Of a stretch of 64,000 nucleotides of DNA, positions 5,630 through 31,013 are shown piece after piece. The stretch covers positions 744,001-808,000 of the forward strand of contig NZ_FNFO01000001.1 in assembly GCF_900100765.1 (NCBI RefSeq), read 5' to 3'. The notes below the pieces were generated by a model, which did no database searches, was not told the origin of the DNA, and saw only the letters and a program-made list of their open reading frames with translations. Numbering within the stretch: the stretch's first letter is position 1; every line of letters begins with the position of its first letter. Made by a program: the position numbers and the translations under genes. This DNA is from Catalinimonas alkaloidigena. Lineage in GTDB: Bacteria > Bacteroidota > Bacteroidia > Cytophagales > Flexibacteraceae.

Positions 5630-6463
5630 TTACTTCCTTTGGCCCAGCCACCGCAGCGCGTCGAGCAGGAAGCGGTCTTGCATTGGGCTGGAAAACGAGG
5701 ACGAAAGCGTGCGGTTGGTGCCGCCTTCGTAGTCCATGTCGTTGTGTCCCATGTTCACGTAGAGCATCCGGTAGTTGCGGTTGGTCCAGGCCACGGGATA
5801 GTACCCATCGTGCCAGATCTCGTGCGGCTTGGGCCCGGTGCCCAGCGGAAAACTCGTTGCGTCGATGGCCAGCAGAATGTCGATGTCGGGGTTGGTGCGG
5901 AGGTCGTGCTCCCAGCGGTACCACTCGTTCGGCGCGGAACGAAACGTGTCGGGCAAATGACGGGTAGCGGGGTGATTCCCGTCTTCCACCCGCAACACCG
6001 CTGAGGTGGGCCGCCACGTGTTGCTGACAAACTGGCCCGATCCTAAAAACTGATCGTGGTACCAGTCCCAGTTCTGCGGGTAGGTGGAGGGGGTCATGGC
6101 AAACGCTGCGAAGTGAAACCCCATCCAGGCCCCGCCGCCTTCCATGTACCTCTGAAACGCGGCCCGCTGCGTTAGGGAATCGGGTCGGGTATCCAGAAAC
6201 AACACGACCTGATAGTCTTTCAGAAAATCGTCGTTCAGGTTCGCCCAGTTGTCAGTCGAGTCGTAAGCGAAGTGGTGTTTCGCCGCCTGTTGGGCCAACC
6301 ATCGGTTCGCCTCGTGTACGTAGCTGATGTGCGCCAGGTCCTGTTGCGCCGTGTAGAACCCGATCACCTTAAACTTCGGTGGCCGCGGGGCAATTGAAAG
6401 AAAGGAAAAGCTGATCAGGAGAAAAAATAGAGCAAGAAGGCGGTGGCGAGGGGATGCGGGCAT
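5630..6463 (-). CDS. ThuA domain protein (trehalose-utilisation-like), exported
   Basis: 277 aa. The ATG at 6463 gives a signal peptide (hydrophobic LLALFFLLISFSFLSI after MPASPRHR); a TTG nine bases upstream is less likely. The rest matches the ThuA fold, a class I glutamine amidotransferase-like domain: KFKVIGFYTA at the start, DDFLKDYQVVLFLDT, the GGGAWMGFHFA turn, and a C-terminal PVAWTNRNYRMLYVNMGHN characteristic of ThuA. Members are implicated in sugar metabolism, but the reaction is not established. It is the last gene of a minus-strand run, starting 10 nt after the stop of the preceding small membrane protein, and it converges with the GH2 gene. Confidence 0.85.
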   Translation of the reverse strand: MPASPRHRLLALFFLLISFSFLSIAPRPPKFKVIGFYTAQQDLAHISYVHEANRWLAQQAAKHHFAYDSTDNWANLNDDFLKDYQVVLFLDTRPDSLTQRAAFQRYMEGGGAWMGFHFAAFAMTPSTYPQNWDWYHDQFLGSGQFVSNTWRPTSAVLRVEDGNHPATRHLPDTFRSAPNEWYRWEHDLRTNPDIDILLAIDATSFPLGTGPKPHEIWHDGYYPVAWTNRNYRMLYVNMGHNDMDYEGGTNRTLSSSFSSPMQDRFLLDALRWLGQRK

Positions 6464-6473
6464 GGTGTGCAAA

Positions 6474-7034
6474 TTAAGAAGACGTTAGCTTTTGTCTCAG
6501 GTACGTGATGAATCGTTGCAGCAGGCGAAAAGCAATCCGGCCAAAAAGGATTCCAGCGATCAGACCTACGAACGCGCCTAAAAGCAAGGAAGTCGCTACT
6601 GTACCTTGATGCAAAATGCGGTAGAGAATTTCTCCACTTGCACAGCCTAGTGCGCAACCAATCACTGCGAAAGTAGTCAGTGTAAATGCCAGGAAACCTT
6701 TGGTGGCCGAACGCTGGTGGACGCCTATAAATACCGAGGTTGAAACGACGCCGACTGTGATCAAACCAACTAACGCCAGCAGAGCAAATCCGGCTAGCAC
6801 GAACACCAGGACTAAACAGGCCACTAATAAGGTCAGCATTAAGACTGCTCCAATAAAAAGGACTGGAGTGAAATCTTTGTCGGCATCGTCTTCGTCAACT
6901 GCTGTGACCTGGAGCGAGTCGGGGGCATACACAGACGCTTCCGTAGAATCAAATGCTGCCTGGGATTGGCTAAACCCTAAGCTAGGAGCCAGACACAGCA
7001 CACCTGTAAGCCAAACAAGGAGGAGGTGTTTTAT
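6474..7034 (-). CDS. Small membrane protein with signal peptide, possible ATA start
   Basis: Unknown family. The nearest ordinary start is GTG at 7001, but that cuts through the hydrophobic core of an obvious signal peptide. Reading back to an ATA codon at 7034 gives KHLLLVWLTGVLCLAPSLGFSQ, a textbook exported N-terminus; an in-frame stop lies immediately before (7035-7037). The ATA overlaps the TAA stop of the upstream gene (ATAA), exactly where an ATGA coupling would sit. After a short acidic linker (residues DEDDADKD) come about four transmembrane helices and a basic tail. No catalytic motif is seen. GC is lower than in the flanking genes. Whether the start is ATA or a G-to-A change from ATG cannot be told here. 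Confidence 0.6.
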   Translation of the reverse strand: MKHLLLVWLTGVLCLAPSLGFSQSQAAFDSTEASVYAPDSLQVTAVDEDDADKDFTPVLFIGAVLMLTLLVACLVLVFVLAGFALLALVGLITVGVVSTSVFIGVHQRSATKGFLAFTLTTFAVIGCALGCASGEILYRILHQGTVATSLLLGAFVGLIAGILFGRIAFRLLQRFITYLRQKLTSS

Positions 7035-7450
7035 CTATGTTGTTGAGAGTAGACGATGTAAAAAACGATACTCAAGTAAGACCACAACCCAATGAACACC
7101 AGGTGAATGCCTGTTTCCAACGGCTTTCCGCGCCATAACTTGGAAGAATAACCGAAAAATTGGATGAGGAGCCGAGCACTCCAGAAGGTGCCTAATCCCA
7201 GGGCGATCCTGCGGCCTAGTGGCGTATGAACCAGTTCGTGGGCTGAAGTCATGCACAGCAGGCCCATCAGCAACACGACGAAAGCGACGAAAAACGTATG
7301 CACATACATCATCTGCCGGTTGATCAGTTGCAGGGAATGCAGGTCTTTTTTCCAGTCGAAGTACCGGGGGAAAATGAGGTGAAGTGTAGCCAGTGCCACC
7401 AACAAAACGCCGATGATGTTAAGGTGCAGTTCCATCTTTTTCGAGGACAT
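7031..7450 (-). CDS. Hypothetical four-helix integral membrane protein
   Basis: 139 aa, starting at ATG 7450 (a second ATG lies five codons in). Four hydrophobic helices are visible: LNIIGVLLVALATLHLIF, YVHTFFVAFVVLLMGLLC, a weaker one around IALGLGTFWSARLLIQF, and HLVFIGLWSYLSIVFYIVY. No known domain is recognised. Its start lies inside the 3' end of the upstream methyltransferase gene (overlap of 32 nt), and its stop overlaps the likely start of the next membrane gene, so translation of this run is probably coupled. Histidines sit near helix ends (H43-type positions by eye), but no metal or heme motif is convincing. Confidence 0.7.
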   Translation of the reverse strand: MSSKKMELHLNIIGVLLVALATLHLIFPRYFDWKKDLHSLQLINRQMMYVHTFFVAFVVLLMGLLCMTSAHELVHTPLGRRIALGLGTFWSARLLIQFFGYSSKLWRGKPLETGIHLVFIGLWSYLSIVFYIVYSQQHR

Positions 7451-8177
7451 AACAGGTCACGAAAGGGGTAATTTTCTTGCGTTGCCTGATGCGAAATCCT
7501 CCAAGGATAAAGGTTTTACGCCAGGTAGGTTCTGGAAAGAAGTGGAAAACCCCAATCGTATAGGAGATGAAGTTAAAAATGTCGCGCAGGTGTTCCACAA
7601 CTACGACGTGCCCATCAGATTGCAGACTACGGTGTAGTTCCTGAAAGAACTGTATACGTTCCTTAGCGTTCCGGATTTCGTGGGCAGCAAAGAGGACGCA
7701 CATCAGGTCGGCGTATTGGTCGGGAAGCGGCAGGCGGTCGGTGCGGATGTGCTGTGTGTCAGGATGAGGGGGATAGGCTTTACGCGCCCGTCGGATCGAG
7801 ACTTCGGTGTGCCGGGCAGGATCGTAAAAGTCAAAAATGATCAGGTCGGTCGTCGGAAATTTTTCCTTTAGCAAGACACTGGATTCGTCAAAACCAGCAT
7901 GGATGTTCACCAGGCGCTGTGGTGTTTTCGGAACTTCCAGCCACTGAAGTTGGTAGAGCGACGAAAGGTCGTAGACGTAAAAAGAAACCAGCAGCGAGAC
8001 AAGGGTTGTGCTTACCGCCATACCGCAGAGGAGCCCAAAAAACGGTCGATAGGAGACAGGTAGCCACCTGATGACGACCCCTAATGACAGAATGCCACCT
8101 AAGGCTATCAGGTAAAAATGGTAGTTGAAACGCAGAATATTGCGGATGCCTTGAAAGGGTGTTCTTCCAGTTACCAT
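7419..8177 (-). CDS. Membrane-anchored class I SAM-dependent methyltransferase-like protein
   Basis: 252 aa. Two N-terminal transmembrane helices (FYLIALGGILSLGVVIRW; LLCGMAVSTTLVSLLVSFYVY) are followed by a Rossmann-type methyltransferase domain. Recognisable blocks are RLVNIHAGFDESS (motif I region, degenerate, without the usual GxGxG), DLIIFDFYDP (motif II), LPLPDQYADLMCVLFAAHEI (post-II/motif III) and LQSDGHVVVVEHLRD (the LxPGGxLxxxE-like strand). Acceptor substrate unknown; the membrane anchor suggests a lipid or quinone-like acceptor, which is inference only. Its ATG lies within the last 7 nt of the DUF2071 gene, and the following membrane gene starts within its 3' end. Confidence 0.75.
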   Translation of the reverse strand: MVTGRTPFQGIRNILRFNYHFYLIALGGILSLGVVIRWLPVSYRPFFGLLCGMAVSTTLVSLLVSFYVYDLSSLYQLQWLEVPKTPQRLVNIHAGFDESSVLLKEKFPTTDLIIFDFYDPARHTEVSIRRARKAYPPHPDTQHIRTDRLPLPDQYADLMCVLFAAHEIRNAKERIQFFQELHRSLQSDGHVVVVEHLRDIFNFISYTIGVFHFFPEPTWRKTFILGGFRIRQRKKITPFVTCYVLEKDGTAP

Positions 8178-8905
8178 GGCTCACGAACGCCTTTTTTCCA
8201 ATGGTAAGGAATCTCCTGGACCACAAACGCACTCGCCAGCCGAAACGTGCTCAAGTGCGGCTGGTCCAGAAACGGAATGTAGTAGTCGAGGACGGTGACC
8301 GGTTGGGGTTGCCAGTGTTGCCGGACGCCCTCGATGATCAGCATCTCCCTGGTTTGGGGAAGCGACGTGAAGGTAAAGGGAAGCGGACCGGCAAACCGCC
8401 GTGCTTCTTTCCAGTCGTGAAAGGGCGACTCGGGCGGCAAGTCCACCGCGTGCTCGTCTTGCCTGACCTGTACCCGGAAGCCGGAAGAAGGTGAAGACAG
8501 CGTCGTTTCCGTGCCCTGCTTACTGACTTCGATAGCGACCTTCTGGTAGCGGTAGTGCGTAAAGAGGTTGCCGAGCAGTTGCATCATAGGGTTGTCCGTC
8601 TCCGAGCGGAGGATGTGCAAGCCCCGCCGTCGCTTGCCCGTCGCATTGGTGAACCGGACGAATAGACGGTATCCGATCAGGAAGAAGTCGTTTCCCAGCC
8701 AGGCCGGAAAGCCTTTCGGGCGCAGGTGTTTCGTCTGCACCATCGCCACGGCCAGAAAGGCCCATTCGTCCTCAAACAGATCCAGCGACAAACCCTCCGG
8801 GACGAGCGAAGTCAATTGCGCTTGCGGAAAGGCGAATGTCAGCACGAACGAAGACTCAAAATACGCCTCGACGGCAAAAGGATGGTGGTTGAGAAAGGAA
8901 AGCAC
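8171..8905 (-). CDS. DUF2071 (YqjF-like) family protein, GTG start
   Basis: About 244 aa from GTG 8905, which lies two bases after the stop of the preceding DoxX-like gene. The open frame extends further, but upstream residues only read through the neighbour and have no conserved character. Features of the DUF2071/YqjF family are visible: LTSLVPEGLSLDLFEDEWAF at the start, then AVAMVQTKHLRPKG and FFLIGYRLFVRF, and a C-terminal strand-rich part. Family members adopt an acetoacetate decarboxylase-like fold but have no assigned reaction. It forms part of the minus-strand run DoxX-like, DUF2071, methyltransferase, membrane proteins, ThuA. Confidence 0.75.
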   Translation of the reverse strand: MLSFLNHHPFAVEAYFESSFVLTFAFPQAQLTSLVPEGLSLDLFEDEWAFLAVAMVQTKHLRPKGFPAWLGNDFFLIGYRLFVRFTNATGKRRRGLHILRSETDNPMMQLLGNLFTHYRYQKVAIEVSKQGTETTLSSPSSGFRVQVRQDEHAVDLPPESPFHDWKEARRFAGPLPFTFTSLPQTREMLIIEGVRQHWQPQPVTVLDYYIPFLDQPHLSTFRLASAFVVQEIPYHWKKGVREPW

Positions 8906-8907
8906 AA

Positions 8908-9294
8908 TCAGACAATGCGTTTGCGAAGTTGAAACGTATGGTAGTAGATCAGCCCCATAAAACCCAGCGCAAAAATGAGGTTGAACCGATCCCACAGCAG
9001 CAGGTCCGGTGCCAAGAAAAATTCCAGCAGGTTCATCGTCCCGATCAATACAATCTGTGTTACCGCACTGACACGCCGTTGAATCCCACTAACTACCCAG
9101 AGTGCCATTCCGATCTCCGCGAACCCTATCGCCTGAGTTAGGAGCGGAGCCACCGCTTCGCCCAGAATACGCGCGACAATCTGCTCGTGTCGCGGCACCC
9201 AACCTAGCACTTTGCAGAAAAGCCCATTCACCAGCCAGACGGAAGCGATGCAGTAAGTGAGGAGGTGGTAAAACAGAAGGACAAGTTGACGCAT
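8908..9294 (-). CDS. DoxX-like family membrane protein
   Basis: 128 aa from ATG 9294; longer in-frame readings upstream carry no hydrophobic or conserved sequence. Four transmembrane helices of the DoxX-like type are seen, with the typical N-terminal WLVNGLFCKVLGWVPRHEQIV, then the GFAEIGMALWVVSG helix and a C-terminal FALGFMGLIYYHTFQLRKR. DoxX-like proteins are small quinone- or thiol-linked membrane proteins of mostly unknown activity. It lies 35 nt after the 160-aa gene and 2 nt before the likely GTG start of the DUF2071 gene, so these are probably transcribed together. Confidence 0.78.
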   Translation of the reverse strand: MRQLVLLFYHLLTYCIASVWLVNGLFCKVLGWVPRHEQIVARILGEAVAPLLTQAIGFAEIGMALWVVSGIQRRVSAVTQIVLIGTMNLLEFFLAPDLLLWDRFNLIFALGFMGLIYYHTFQLRKRIV

Positions 9295-9329
9295 GAAGCA
9301 AGATCTGAATGAAATGGGTTTCCGCCTGA

Positions 9330-9812
9330 TCAAAGAAAAGAAGAAGCTTTCGTGCGCAAGGTATGCACCAGCGTACGCAACGGCTGATTCATTTCTTCGT
9401 CTAGATTCCAGGTGAAGGTGGTGCCTGATGAGGGGATGGATAACTGGCAAAAAAGTCCATCCAGTACAATTCCCTTGTATGGCGCAGTACTCAGAAGGGA
9501 GGTATCGATGGATTGTAGAAAAGTAGCCTCCGTTTCCGAGAGCGAAAGCTCCTGTTCGGTAATAGCCAAGCGATTCAAATTATAAATCCCATGCTGAAAG
9601 CGCGAACCATCGTAGTGCGCATTCCAATACTTCGCTACAAACTTTACTTCAGATTTATGAGCAAGTAATGTAACAGAAAATGCATGTGATAGGAGTTGTC
9701 CTATCTCCAAATACAGAATATGAGTGTGCCAATCAGGCGGACAAGCTAAATCCGTCAATTCAGTTTTGATCTGATTGATAAGATCTTCCGTACGATTCGA
9801 GAATCTTTCCAT
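9330..9812 (-). CDS. Hypothetical protein, 160 aa
   Basis: Starts at ATG 9812. No family recognised. The sequence is soluble, with an N-terminal amphipathic helix (RTEDLINQIKTELTDL) and alternating short strands; one CPPDW segment and a buried-looking HAFSVTLLAHKSEVKFV stretch are notable. There is no signal peptide or membrane helix. Base composition is distinctly more AT-rich than the rest of the window. It stands first in the minus-strand run that continues with the DoxX-like gene 35 nt downstream, and the palindromic repeat region lies just upstream of it. Confidence 0.6.
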   Translation of the reverse strand: MERFSNRTEDLINQIKTELTDLACPPDWHTHILYLEIGQLLSHAFSVTLLAHKSEVKFVAKYWNAHYDGSRFQHGIYNLNRLAITEQELSLSETEATFLQSIDTSLLSTAPYKGIVLDGLFCQLSIPSSGTTFTWNLDEEMNQPLRTLVHTLRTKASSFL

Positions 9813-9827
9813 TTACCAATACGCTCT

Positions 9828-10055
9828 GTCATCCCGAAGGGATCTTCTTGCTCTTCAAGAGGATTTTTCTCAATGTGTAGCAAGATCCAGCAGCGGCTGC
9901 CGCTTTCAGGATGACATAGAAAACACTACTTGTCATTTCGACCATAGGGAGAAATCTTGCTCCGACAGGCTCTAGATCTCTCACATTCGTTCGAGATGAC
10001 AAATTAAACGAGATGAGAGCGGAAAGAGAATGACAAAACAGTGGTCGAGATGACA
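9828..10055. repeat. Cluster of palindromic intergenic repeats (REP-like)
   Basis: Three related units. Unit 1 is bounded by GTCATCC (9828-9834) and GGATGAC (9909-9915). Unit 2 is bounded by TTGTCATTTCGACC (9930-9943) and GTTCGAGATGACAA (9989-10002), which are inverted copies at 12 of 14 positions. A third partial unit ends with GGTCGAGATGACA (10043-10055). The core, a TCATTTCGACC end followed by GGGAGAAATCTTGC, resembles a repeat found between genes in many Bacteroidota genomes. No coding sequence is present. It separates the 160-aa gene from the end of the M28 peptidase gene. Confidence 0.7.
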
Positions 10056-10090
10056 GAGAAAGGAAGACGGGCAGAAAGTAGAGCGAGCTT

Positions 10091-26321: not shown

Positions 26322-28556
<2,235 letters not shown>

Positions 28557-28565
<9 letters not shown>

Positions 28566-31013
28566 GTTTTCTTCGAACAGCTTCAGAATGCGTTTGTATT
28601 CGTCGGTCCAACTGCTGGGCTCCACAAACCCGTGGCTCTCTACCGGATAGACGGCCAGTTCCCAATTATCTTTTCCTAATTCGATCAGCCGTTGCGTCAG
28701 CCGCACAATGTCCTGAAAATGGACGTTGGTGTCGACCATGCCGTGGCACATCAGCAGCGCGCCCTGCAGCCCCTCGGCGAAATAGATGGGCGAACTGCGC
28801 ACGTAGGCCAGACTGTCGGTTGTCGGTTCGTTCAGGATGTTGGACGTGTAGCCGTGGTTATAGTGCGCCCAGTCGGTGACGGAGCGGAGCGCTGCCCCGG
28901 CCGCAAACACGTTCGGCTGGGTGAACATGGCCATCAGCGTGATGAAACCGCCGTACGAGCCGCCGTAAATGCCAATGCGCTTGGCGTCGATGCCGTACCG
29001 CTCGGTCAGCATGCGTGCGCCGTCTACCTGATCGGTCAGGTCTTTGTCGCCCATGTACCGGTAAATGCCTGTCCGCCAGTCGCGACCGTAGCCGGCACTG
29101 CCCCGGTAGTCGATGTCGAGCACGGTGTAGCCCCGGTCGGCCAGCAGGTTATGAAACATGTACTCGCGGAAGTAGCTGCTCCACCAGCGGTGGGCGTTTT
29201 GCAAGTACCCCGCTCCGTGCACGAATACCACCGCGGGGCCGCCCGTTTGGGTGGTATCCTCCGGGCGGTAGAGGCGGGCATGTACCTCGGCCCCGTCGCG
29301 GGCGGCAAACGTGATCACTTCGGGCGCGCGCCACGGGTACGACTTGAAGGCCTCACTGCGCGAATCGGTAATCCGGATCGGGGCGGGTGCTTCCGTCGTG
29401 TCCGGAATGTTGGGGATCAGAAAAAGATCCCACGGTTCGTTGCTGAACGAGTGGCGCACGACGATCCACTTTTCGTCGGGCGAAAGGGTCGGCTCGTTGG
29501 CCCCTTCCAGTTGCGTCAGGCGCTGTGCTTCTCCGCGGGGCGTGCCGTCGGGCGCAACGTCCAGCCGGTACAGCTGCTTTTCGCCCGGATGCTGTGCATT
29601 GGTCAGCAGGTAGAACGCGGAGCGGTCGCGCGACAGTTGCGCTTCCTGCACTTCGTACTTTCCCTGGGTGAGGGCCTTAATCTCTCCGGTCCGGACGTCG
29701 GCCACGTACAGGTGCGCATAGCCGGTCTTTTCCGACTGAAACCAGAGGTGCGTCGCATCCAGCCAGCCGAGGTTGCCCGGCCCGCCGTATGAGCCGATGC
29801 CGGGGCCGCCGATCCAGGCTTCGTCGTGCTGGTGGTCCAGGACCTGAATGGTGCCGTCGGTCAGGTTCAGGAGGCCGATCCAGCGGTCTTTGTTGTCACG
29901 CGAGCGCACGACGATGGCGGGCCGCTCTACCGAAAAATCTCCTTCCGGGTACACCGGTCCGTACAGCGCCACGGCTTTCGGTGCGGCCTGGGTTGTGTCG
30001 GCGGCGGCCGCTTTTTTACGCCGCTTTGCCGGGCGCGAGGGGGCGGGCGTCGGCGTTGCGTACGCGTTCCGGAACTCGGGCACCGTGCGGATGCCGGGCA
30101 GATCGTCGGTCCGGACGGCGTAGGCACTGTCGCGGTCGCGGTCGTACACAAAAAGCTCCTGCGTGGGCTGCGGTCCCCCCACTTTGCTACGTGCCTGGAT
30201 GTCGGTCGTATAGCCCGAGCGCGTCACGTAATCGGGCACAAGGGTAGTGGGGTCGTTGGCCGGTTTGTAGAGGGTATAGGTGACGTACCGGCCGTCGGCA
30301 CTGAGTTGCGCGTCGCTCACGGTGCGGTCGTGGGTGTAAACTTCGCCCTTGCGTTTCACGTCGTTCTGCTTCTTCAGCGAGTCGGCCAGGTCTTCCTGGG
30401 CTTTGCGCTCGCGCAGCACCTCCATCAGCGCCAGTTGCTGTTCGGCCAGCCACGCATCGCGGGTTTTTTCCGCGGGTTGAGCGGCTTTGCCGGGTTTCTT
30501 GCCGGCCGTAAAGTGGATGACCTGTTCGAGCGTTCCGTCACCGAGCGACAGCAGGTAAAGGTCTTTTTCGCGTCTGAATACCACCTTTTTGCCGTCGGCC
30601 GTAAACTTCGGGTCGCTCTCCTGATCCCACGTGTTGGTCAGGCGGCGCACTGCACCGGAGGCCAGGTTCCGCAGGTACAGATCGCCCTCCTGGGCATAGA
30701 CCTTCCGGAGGCGTTTGGCGTCGTACTGCCCGCCGCGCGAGGGGGGAAGCTGGCGGCGTTCGGCCGGGGAAAGCTTGATGGGCGCTTCGGCACCGAGGTC
30801 GTACTTGTACAGCGAATCGGACGCAAAAGCGCCCCCCGGATTCCACGAAAAGTAGAAGGTGCGGCTGTTGTCATCCCACACGATGTTTTCCGGTTGCGGA
30901 CCGATCCACTTCGGGTCGCGCATGATGGTGGCGACGGTCAGCGTGTCCAGCGTCTGGGCAAAGGTGGGGGCGGCCAGTAAAAAGGTAAAAAGAGAGAGGC
31001 GAAGTTTGCTCAT
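28557..31013 (-). CDS. S9 family prolyl oligopeptidase-type serine peptidase, exported
   Basis: 818 aa with a signal peptide (LFTFLLAAPTFAQ). A beta-propeller (about 30-560, with DPP-IV-like repeats such as YVTYTLYKP and WIVVRHSFS) precedes an alpha/beta-hydrolase domain. The catalytic triad is S686 (GIYGGSYGGF), D761 (HGMVDTNVHF) and H794 (PVESHGF). This is the dipeptidyl peptidase IV/acylaminoacyl-peptidase group; expected to trim peptides in the periplasm. A lysine/arginine/alanine-rich low-complexity insert (around RPAKRRKKAAAADTTQ) interrupts the propeller. Divergent from the outer-membrane barrel gene. Confidence 0.93.

Follow-up and report, generated by a model that had tools for sequence, protein, structure and literature searches.

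A recurrent four-gene membrane module in Bacteroidota with a possible role in lipid modification

A 64,000-nucleotide (nt) stretch of the Catalinimonas alkaloidigena genome (assembly GCF_900100765.1, contig NZ_FNFO01000001.1, positions 744,001-808,000) was analysed; it is called the window here, and coordinates are those of the window unless a locus or contig number is given. At 5630-9812 it carries seven open reading frames (ORFs), each on the minus strand (Table 1). The middle four encode a DoxX_3-like membrane protein (DoxX), a DUF2071 protein (DUF2071), a methyltransferase-like protein (MT) and a four-helix membrane protein (mem139). These four genes recur together, mostly in Bacteroidota, and that they act together as one module is well supported. 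Our best current guess at their activity is modification of a membrane lipid by an enzyme using S-adenosylmethionine (SAM); we put the probability that the four proteins form such a membrane-bound module at roughly 0.42, the joint function being firmer than the chemistry. No description of the four-gene module (or cassette) was found in literature searches, which covered mainly open-licence papers.

Recurrence and coupling of the four genes

MT is present in 15 of the 98 genomes of the window's order, the window's own included, and was not found in the 10 other genomes of the same family. Strong matches to mem139 (E <= 1.4e-53), DUF2071 (best E <= 1.3e-44) and DoxX (E <= 1.0e-37) occur in exactly these 15 genomes, an agreement that is partly by construction, as the four profiles were seeded from the loci of the MT genomes (thresholds of E <= 1e-8 for DoxX and E <= 0.001 for the other three). 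The remaining 83 genomes have only fragments or weak, distant matches. Found without seeding were DUF2071, mem139 and DoxX of genome G086, DoxX of G011 and DUF2071 of G026. G086 keeps all four genes, dispersed over four contigs (MT on C67, mem139 on C45, DUF2071 on C12 and DoxX on C1); its DoxX and DUF2071 matches are flagged with one TAA, and an uninterrupted DUF2071 ORF of 244 amino acids (aa) was found. DoxX of G011 lies on a different contig from the remaining three genes, with no member missing. The following were not counted as cassette members: mem139 matches in G024, G059 and G093 and second copies in G063 and G081 (E 1e-29 to 6e-12), DUF2071 matches in G024, G059, G087 and G093 and second copies in five genomes, and DoxX fragments in G059 and G087. 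Near the end of contig C99 of G059, a genome without MT, a partial DoxX is directly followed by a partial mem139 (L159, 1289-1776), and these fragments look like the remnant of a deleted module.

When ORFs of 14 relative stretches and the window were clustered, MT was represented in 15 loci, mem139 in 14, DoxX and DUF2071 in 13 each, and a DUF3419 protein, discussed below, in three. The other clusters among the top 25 listed comprise four loci or fewer; most consist of ORFs that overlie the module itself or come from two loci in the same surroundings.

When named genomes were scanned with the MT alignment, 271 relatives came up, and the best 80 were used as loci. By name 78 of them are Bacteroidota, and the other two are bins labelled Pyrinomonadaceae and Sumerlaeota. 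Although these loci were chosen by MT alone, the order DoxX-DUF2071-MT-mem139 on one strand is found in 73 of the 80. Five of the seven deviating loci can be put down to contig edges (near which L045 and L057 begin), split genes (DoxX in two pieces in L067, MT in two ORFs in L103) or fusion (DoxX and DUF2071 as one ORF in L099). In the other two, DoxX is on the opposite strand (L092), or neither DUF2071 nor DoxX is found in about 1.2 kb upstream (L058). Together with the 14 relative stretches these make up the 94 cassette loci used below, of which 92 are distinct (L018/L042 and L021/L089 are duplicates) and several are short contigs. No recurrent fifth neighbour appears among the top 30 clusters listed for the 80 loci. 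Leaving aside ORFs antisense to the four genes, the most frequent neighbour there is a dehydrogenase-like family, seen at scattered positions in 7 of the 80.

The genes are closely spaced at these loci, with start sites chosen by script. From DoxX to DUF2071 the median gap is 1 nt (a gap of at most 25 nt or an overlap in 66 of 73 cases), from DUF2071 to MT the median is -13 nt (75 of 76), and from MT to mem139 it is -17 nt (80 of 80). The corresponding junctions of the window are a gap of 2 nt, an overlap of 7 nt and an overlap of 32 nt, reduced to 17 nt with the conserved ATG at 7435 as the start of mem139; the median of -17 nt favours this start over 7450. A preliminary description of the window, made from its sequence, had read all seven ORFs as a translationally coupled operon. 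Its frames, shared strand, short spacing and GTG start (that of DUF2071) are borne out. Strongly borne out, too, is the conserved co-occurrence of DUF2071, DoxX-like and methyltransferase genes that it put forward as a check, and mem139 is added as a fourth member. The seven-gene unit is rejected, since only the middle four recur as a set and the outer three genes are found in 0 of the 94 loci (tblastn).

Proteins of the module

Pfam scores above the cut-off were obtained for DoxX, DUF2071, MT (Methyltransf_11) and the ThuA-family protein encoded downstream, and for none of mem139 and the two other flanking proteins, unk160 and mem186. MT scores 27.3 bits against PF08241 (cut-off 21.2), over profile positions 30-95 only, and has hydrophobic stretches at residues 17-43 and 45-71 ahead of the methyltransferase-like domain. 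Class I SAM-dependent methyltransferases carry a glycine-rich SAM-binding loop, GxGxG. This loop was not found in MT, where residues 95-98, at what would be the equivalent position, read GFDE instead. G95, F96, D97 and E98 are present in 93 of 93 aligned rows (L103 left out), and three Streptomyces rows have GLDE, keeping G95, D97 and E98. At other expected sites, the residues D116, H166, E167, E195, H212 and W219 are invariant across phyla, which suggests an active site. MT is nearest, weakly, to UbiE-type or small-molecule methyltransferases. Its best NCBIfam matches are to UbiE/Coq5-type families and are below threshold (25.5 bits for UbiE/MenG TIGR01934, against a cut-off of 158.35); unlike those enzymes it has GFDE in place of motif I and a membrane hairpin at the N-terminus. 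Its relatives in the PDB by sequence are weak. The protein thus poses a biochemical question, namely whether a methyltransferase fold can use SAM without the glycine loop.

The DUF2071 protein of the window scores 54.4 bits against PF09844 (cut-off 27), and no sequence relatives were found in the PDB at E <= 1. Its structural model (predicted local distance difference test score, pLDDT, of 91.6) aligns with 12 entries of the acetoacetate decarboxylase (ADC) fold at Z 15.8-17.9 over 201-214 residues, the next row scoring 5.9, and as modelled the protein has an ADC-like fold. A relation of DUF2071 to this fold is already in print, and the Schiff-base lysine of ADC (Lys115) is reported not to be conserved in DUF2071 (PMC4520260). 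The module protein shares the Pfam match and the fold of this superfamily and differs in its link to a membrane module as well as in the reported lack of the lysine. The window's genome has a second DUF2071 gene (L001 1471-2217; G000 contig C3, 99350-99964), whose product matches the Pfam model far more closely (E 5.4e-54).

DoxX scores 56.3 bits against PF13781 (DoxX_3; cut-off 25). In the model of mem139 (pLDDT 91.4) there are four helices, at 3-30, 42-68, 77-100 and 110-138. Residues H24, W33, H51, R93, Q97, W106 and H116 are 100% conserved, after rounding, in 94 rows, and all of them except Q97 remain invariant when Streptomyces rows are added. Judged by helix position, H24, H51, R93, Q97 and H116 would lie towards one end of the bundle, and the positively charged residues of loops 1 and 3 hint at a cytosolic position for it. 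The best structural match is a designed bundle (Z 9.8), with TMEM97 (8.3) and TMEM35/NACHO (8.0) both below it. The idea that mem139 is a duplicate of DoxX was rejected, as the two show no profile similarity (probability 1.6%).

Possible function

Two genetic links point towards lipids. In three Cytophagales loci (L029, L030 and L031) a gene of the DUF3419 (BtaA) family stands in the operon, adjoining DoxX, and another lies inside the cluster on the plasmid of Streptomyces sp. Caat 7-52. In a tree that included 10 of 17 genome matches, the four linked DUF3419 proteins cluster separately from ten others (98/98), although the branches are long and call for caution; for one DUF3419 protein, no sequence relatives were found in the PDB at E <= 0.1. 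Further, distant mem139-like genes overlap an MBOAT_2-type acyltransferase gene by 10 nt at all four loci of this kind (L160-L163, from four genomes, three of one genus); MBOAT_2 is named by Pfam in L160 and L162, and the sequences of L161 and L163 look much the same by eye. The pair would be a two-gene unit separate from the module. Of the lipid- or quinone-modifying pathway suggested in the preliminary description, the lipid half is strengthened by these BtaA-like and MBOAT_2-type partners, and quinones are indicated only by a UbiE-type similarity far below the cut-off.

Beyond the recurrence, the tight coupling and the invariant polar residues of the four, which are shown, we infer the following division of labour. 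MT would be held at the cytosolic face of the membrane by its N-terminal hairpin and would attach a methyl group, or some other group taken from SAM, to a membrane lipid or isoprenoid at its head group. DoxX and mem139 may serve as substrate-binding subunits within the membrane, mem139 by way of H24, H51, R93, Q97 and H116, and DUF2071, which by the literature lacks the Schiff-base lysine, may, at the cytosolic surface, bind the amphipathic substrate or rearrange it. The BtaA-like enzyme of a few lineages, by homology a SAM-using aminocarboxypropyl transferase, would add a further step. A bolder version, which we regard as unlikely, is that the module makes an undescribed class of SAM-derived membrane lipids. 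GFDE would then be a new cofactor loop of a methyltransferase-fold enzyme, whose partners in a complex would be a lipid-handling protein of decarboxylase fold and two membrane subunits of four helices each, and the form with a BtaA-like protein (in Streptomyces and three Cytophagales) would yield a variant with an amino-acid head group. The module matters because a recurrent set of patchy distribution, found in numerous Bacteroidota (one scan gave 271 MT relatives), offers a direct genetic route to a membrane product. It would also provide a functional context for DUF2071, for a branch of DoxX_3 and for a four-helix family that has no Pfam entry.

The module resembles the BtaA/BtaB system in that a DUF3419 protein and a methyltransferase-like protein are encoded in one cluster, at four loci here. 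It differs in that most modules have no DUF3419 gene and that three further conserved proteins are added; the hydrophobic hairpin at the N-terminus of MT and its lack of a glycine-rich loop would be further differences.

Several observations weigh against a SAM-dependent lipid enzyme. In MT the Pfam match starts only after the place where a glycine loop is expected and GFDE is found, which weakens the predicted SAM binding, and the mem139 model resembles nothing more specific than common helical bundles. PF11899 (DUF3419) has no match in 12 of the 15 cassette genomes, the window's own among them, and it occurs in the flanks of 0 of the 80 named loci. The MBOAT_2-linked relatives of mem139 are distant (E 1e-13 to 6e-12) and by eye lack H51 and H116. 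Finally, elsewhere DoxX-like genes are members of an oxidative-stress regulon (PMC7907618).

In a different reading, the module serves detoxification or redox stress. In or at the membrane, MT would methylate a small hydrophobic compound, a quinone or phenol for instance; DoxX would take part in redox chemistry, and DUF2071 would bind the compound. DoxX proteins of Bacillus are linked to quinone stress. In Haemophilus, a DoxX-like gene lies in an operon induced by hypochlorous acid (PMC7907618). The Haemophilus and Neisseria stress operons resemble the module in being four-gene operons that join a DoxX-like membrane protein to unassigned proteins, and differ in the named partner families, which are COG3767, COG3220 and DUF2063 (same source). 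A patchy distribution also fits an accessory trait, and an ArsR-type regulator adjoins the module on two Streptomyces plasmid records. Against this, neither a regulator nor an oxidoreductase recurs beside the module in the 80 loci, where the commonest neighbouring family reaches only the 7 loci given above, and the BtaA-like and MBOAT_2-type links indicate lipids. We consider this reading rather unlikely.

In a further reading, which is improbable, MT has ceased to methylate, and the module, with a methyltransferase fold at its base, is a factor for membrane-protein assembly or lipid transport. In favour of it are the GFDE that invariably stands where a glycine loop is expected, the reported absence of the catalytic lysine of the fold family from DUF2071 (PMC4520260), and mem139's weak resemblance to the assembly factor TMEM35/NACHO. 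That similarity is, however, not above the level of unrelated helical bundles, and the six MT residues invariant across phyla suggest an active site. More improbable still is a true betaine-lipid pathway (diacylglyceryltrimethylhomoserine or DGTS type), with MT as the N-methyltransferase completing a product begun by BtaA, which is favoured by the four linked DUF3419 genes and their separate grouping and is not supported as a general function, given that DUF3419 is present in 3 of 15 cassette genomes (the window's not among them) and in 0 of 80 flanks, and also in 12 of the 83 genomes that lack the cassette.

Distribution and probable transfer

Across the phylum, MT was found at E <= 1e-20 in at least 13 of 395 genomes, a lower bound since at most six first-look candidates were scored per genome. 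A quickly built tree from MT, DUF2071 and mem139 (L103 left out) needs 29 changes of order label, compared with a minimum of 6 and a mean of 37.9 for shuffled labels; the labels are thus more clustered than in the shuffles, yet far from the minimum, in a tree that has many open forks and is limited by bins, paralogues and weak support. One starred pair joins a Cyclobacteriaceae bin with Epilithonimonas tenax. The patchy distribution and the mixing of orders in the tree make lateral spread of the module, and transfer between orders, likely. For the lateral acquisition proposed in the preliminary description this speaks at the level of the module; the window's own position in the tree is without starred support, and no Bacteroidota plasmid record matched MT or DUF2071.

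Homologues of MT and DUF2071 are found on six Streptomyces plasmid records, and mem139 likewise on six; all six records are predicted to be non-mobilizable. The homologies are supported by our profiles, which score 182-186 bits for MT, 225-241 for DUF2071, 114-124 for mem139 and 56 for DoxX against the Streptomyces proteins. Gene maps of three of the six records were examined. On the plasmid of Streptomyces sp. Caat 7-52, DoxX_3 is followed by BtaA-like, DUF2071, MT and mem139. On two pSA3239-type plasmids (L138 5630-7972 and L139 5621-7969) the order is ArsR-type regulator, DUF2071, MT and mem139, the regulator replacing DoxX and possibly giving a clue to the inducer.

Neighbouring genes and composition

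Table 1. The seven ORFs at 5630-9812 of the window and their tblastn matches in the 94 cassette loci
Feature	Position	Strand	Remarks
unk160, 160 aa	9330..9812	-	outside the module; 0/94 loci; GC3 0.44
DoxX_3-like membrane protein, 128 aa	8908..9294	-	core gene 1; PF13781; 87/94 loci
DUF2071 protein, 244 aa	8171..8905	-	core gene 2; GTG start; PF09844; 91/94 loci
MT, 252 aa	7419..8177	-	core gene 3; PF08241; 94/94 loci, by selection
mem139, four-helix membrane protein, 134 aa (139 aa if start 7450)	7031..7435	-	core gene 4; 93/94 loci
mem186, signal-peptide-like N-terminus	6474..7034	-	probable ATA start; outside the module; 0/94 loci
ThuA-family gene, signal-peptide-like N-terminus	5630..6463	-	PF06283; outside the module; 0/94 loci

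The three outer genes, unk160, mem186 and the ThuA-family gene (113.7 bits against PF06283, cut-off 33.4), are local neighbours, not members of the module. Homologues of unk160 occur in 2 of the 98 order genomes, its own and G059. Those of mem186 occur in 4, again including its own, and the copies in G033 and G048 are on other contigs than the cassette. In the window, a gap of 35 nt separates unk160 from DoxX, mem139 and mem186 overlap by 4 nt, and mem186 is followed by ThuA after 10 nt. The apparent ATA start of mem186 overlaps the TAA stop of mem139 as ATAA (7031-7034). This start, raised tentatively in the preliminary description, is plausible: the preceding codon is a stop, no ATG, GTG or TTG occurs before codon 12, and at about the same place an ATG serves as the start of a homologue from another genome.

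The GC content at third codon positions (GC3) was compared with that of 29 other long ORFs of the window (0.74, standard deviation 0.084, minimum 0.54), which were picked mechanically and some of which are probably not genes. It is low in unk160 (0.44), mem186 (0.48), MT (0.56), DoxX (0.63) and mem139 (0.66), and ordinary in DUF2071 (0.73) and ThuA (0.78). The lower GC content attributed to all seven genes thus holds for some, above all for the AT-rich unk160 and mem186, and fails for DUF2071 and ThuA. A defence origin was rejected, as no PADLOC-DB family matched at E <= 0.01 for seven proteins (ThuA not among them), and so was a phage origin, with no PHROGs match at E <= 0.01 for six proteins and no phage record matched by mem139.

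Between unk160 and the next gene lies a repeat-like intergenic stretch (9820-10062) with a 14-nt inverted repeat at its ends. It has 24 matches genome-wide, itself included, all the others being partial; a purpose-designed repeat pattern gave no match. Elsewhere in the window, two convergent ORFs at 26322-28565 (plus strand) and 28557-31013 (minus strand) overlap at their 3' ends by 9 nt (28557-28565).

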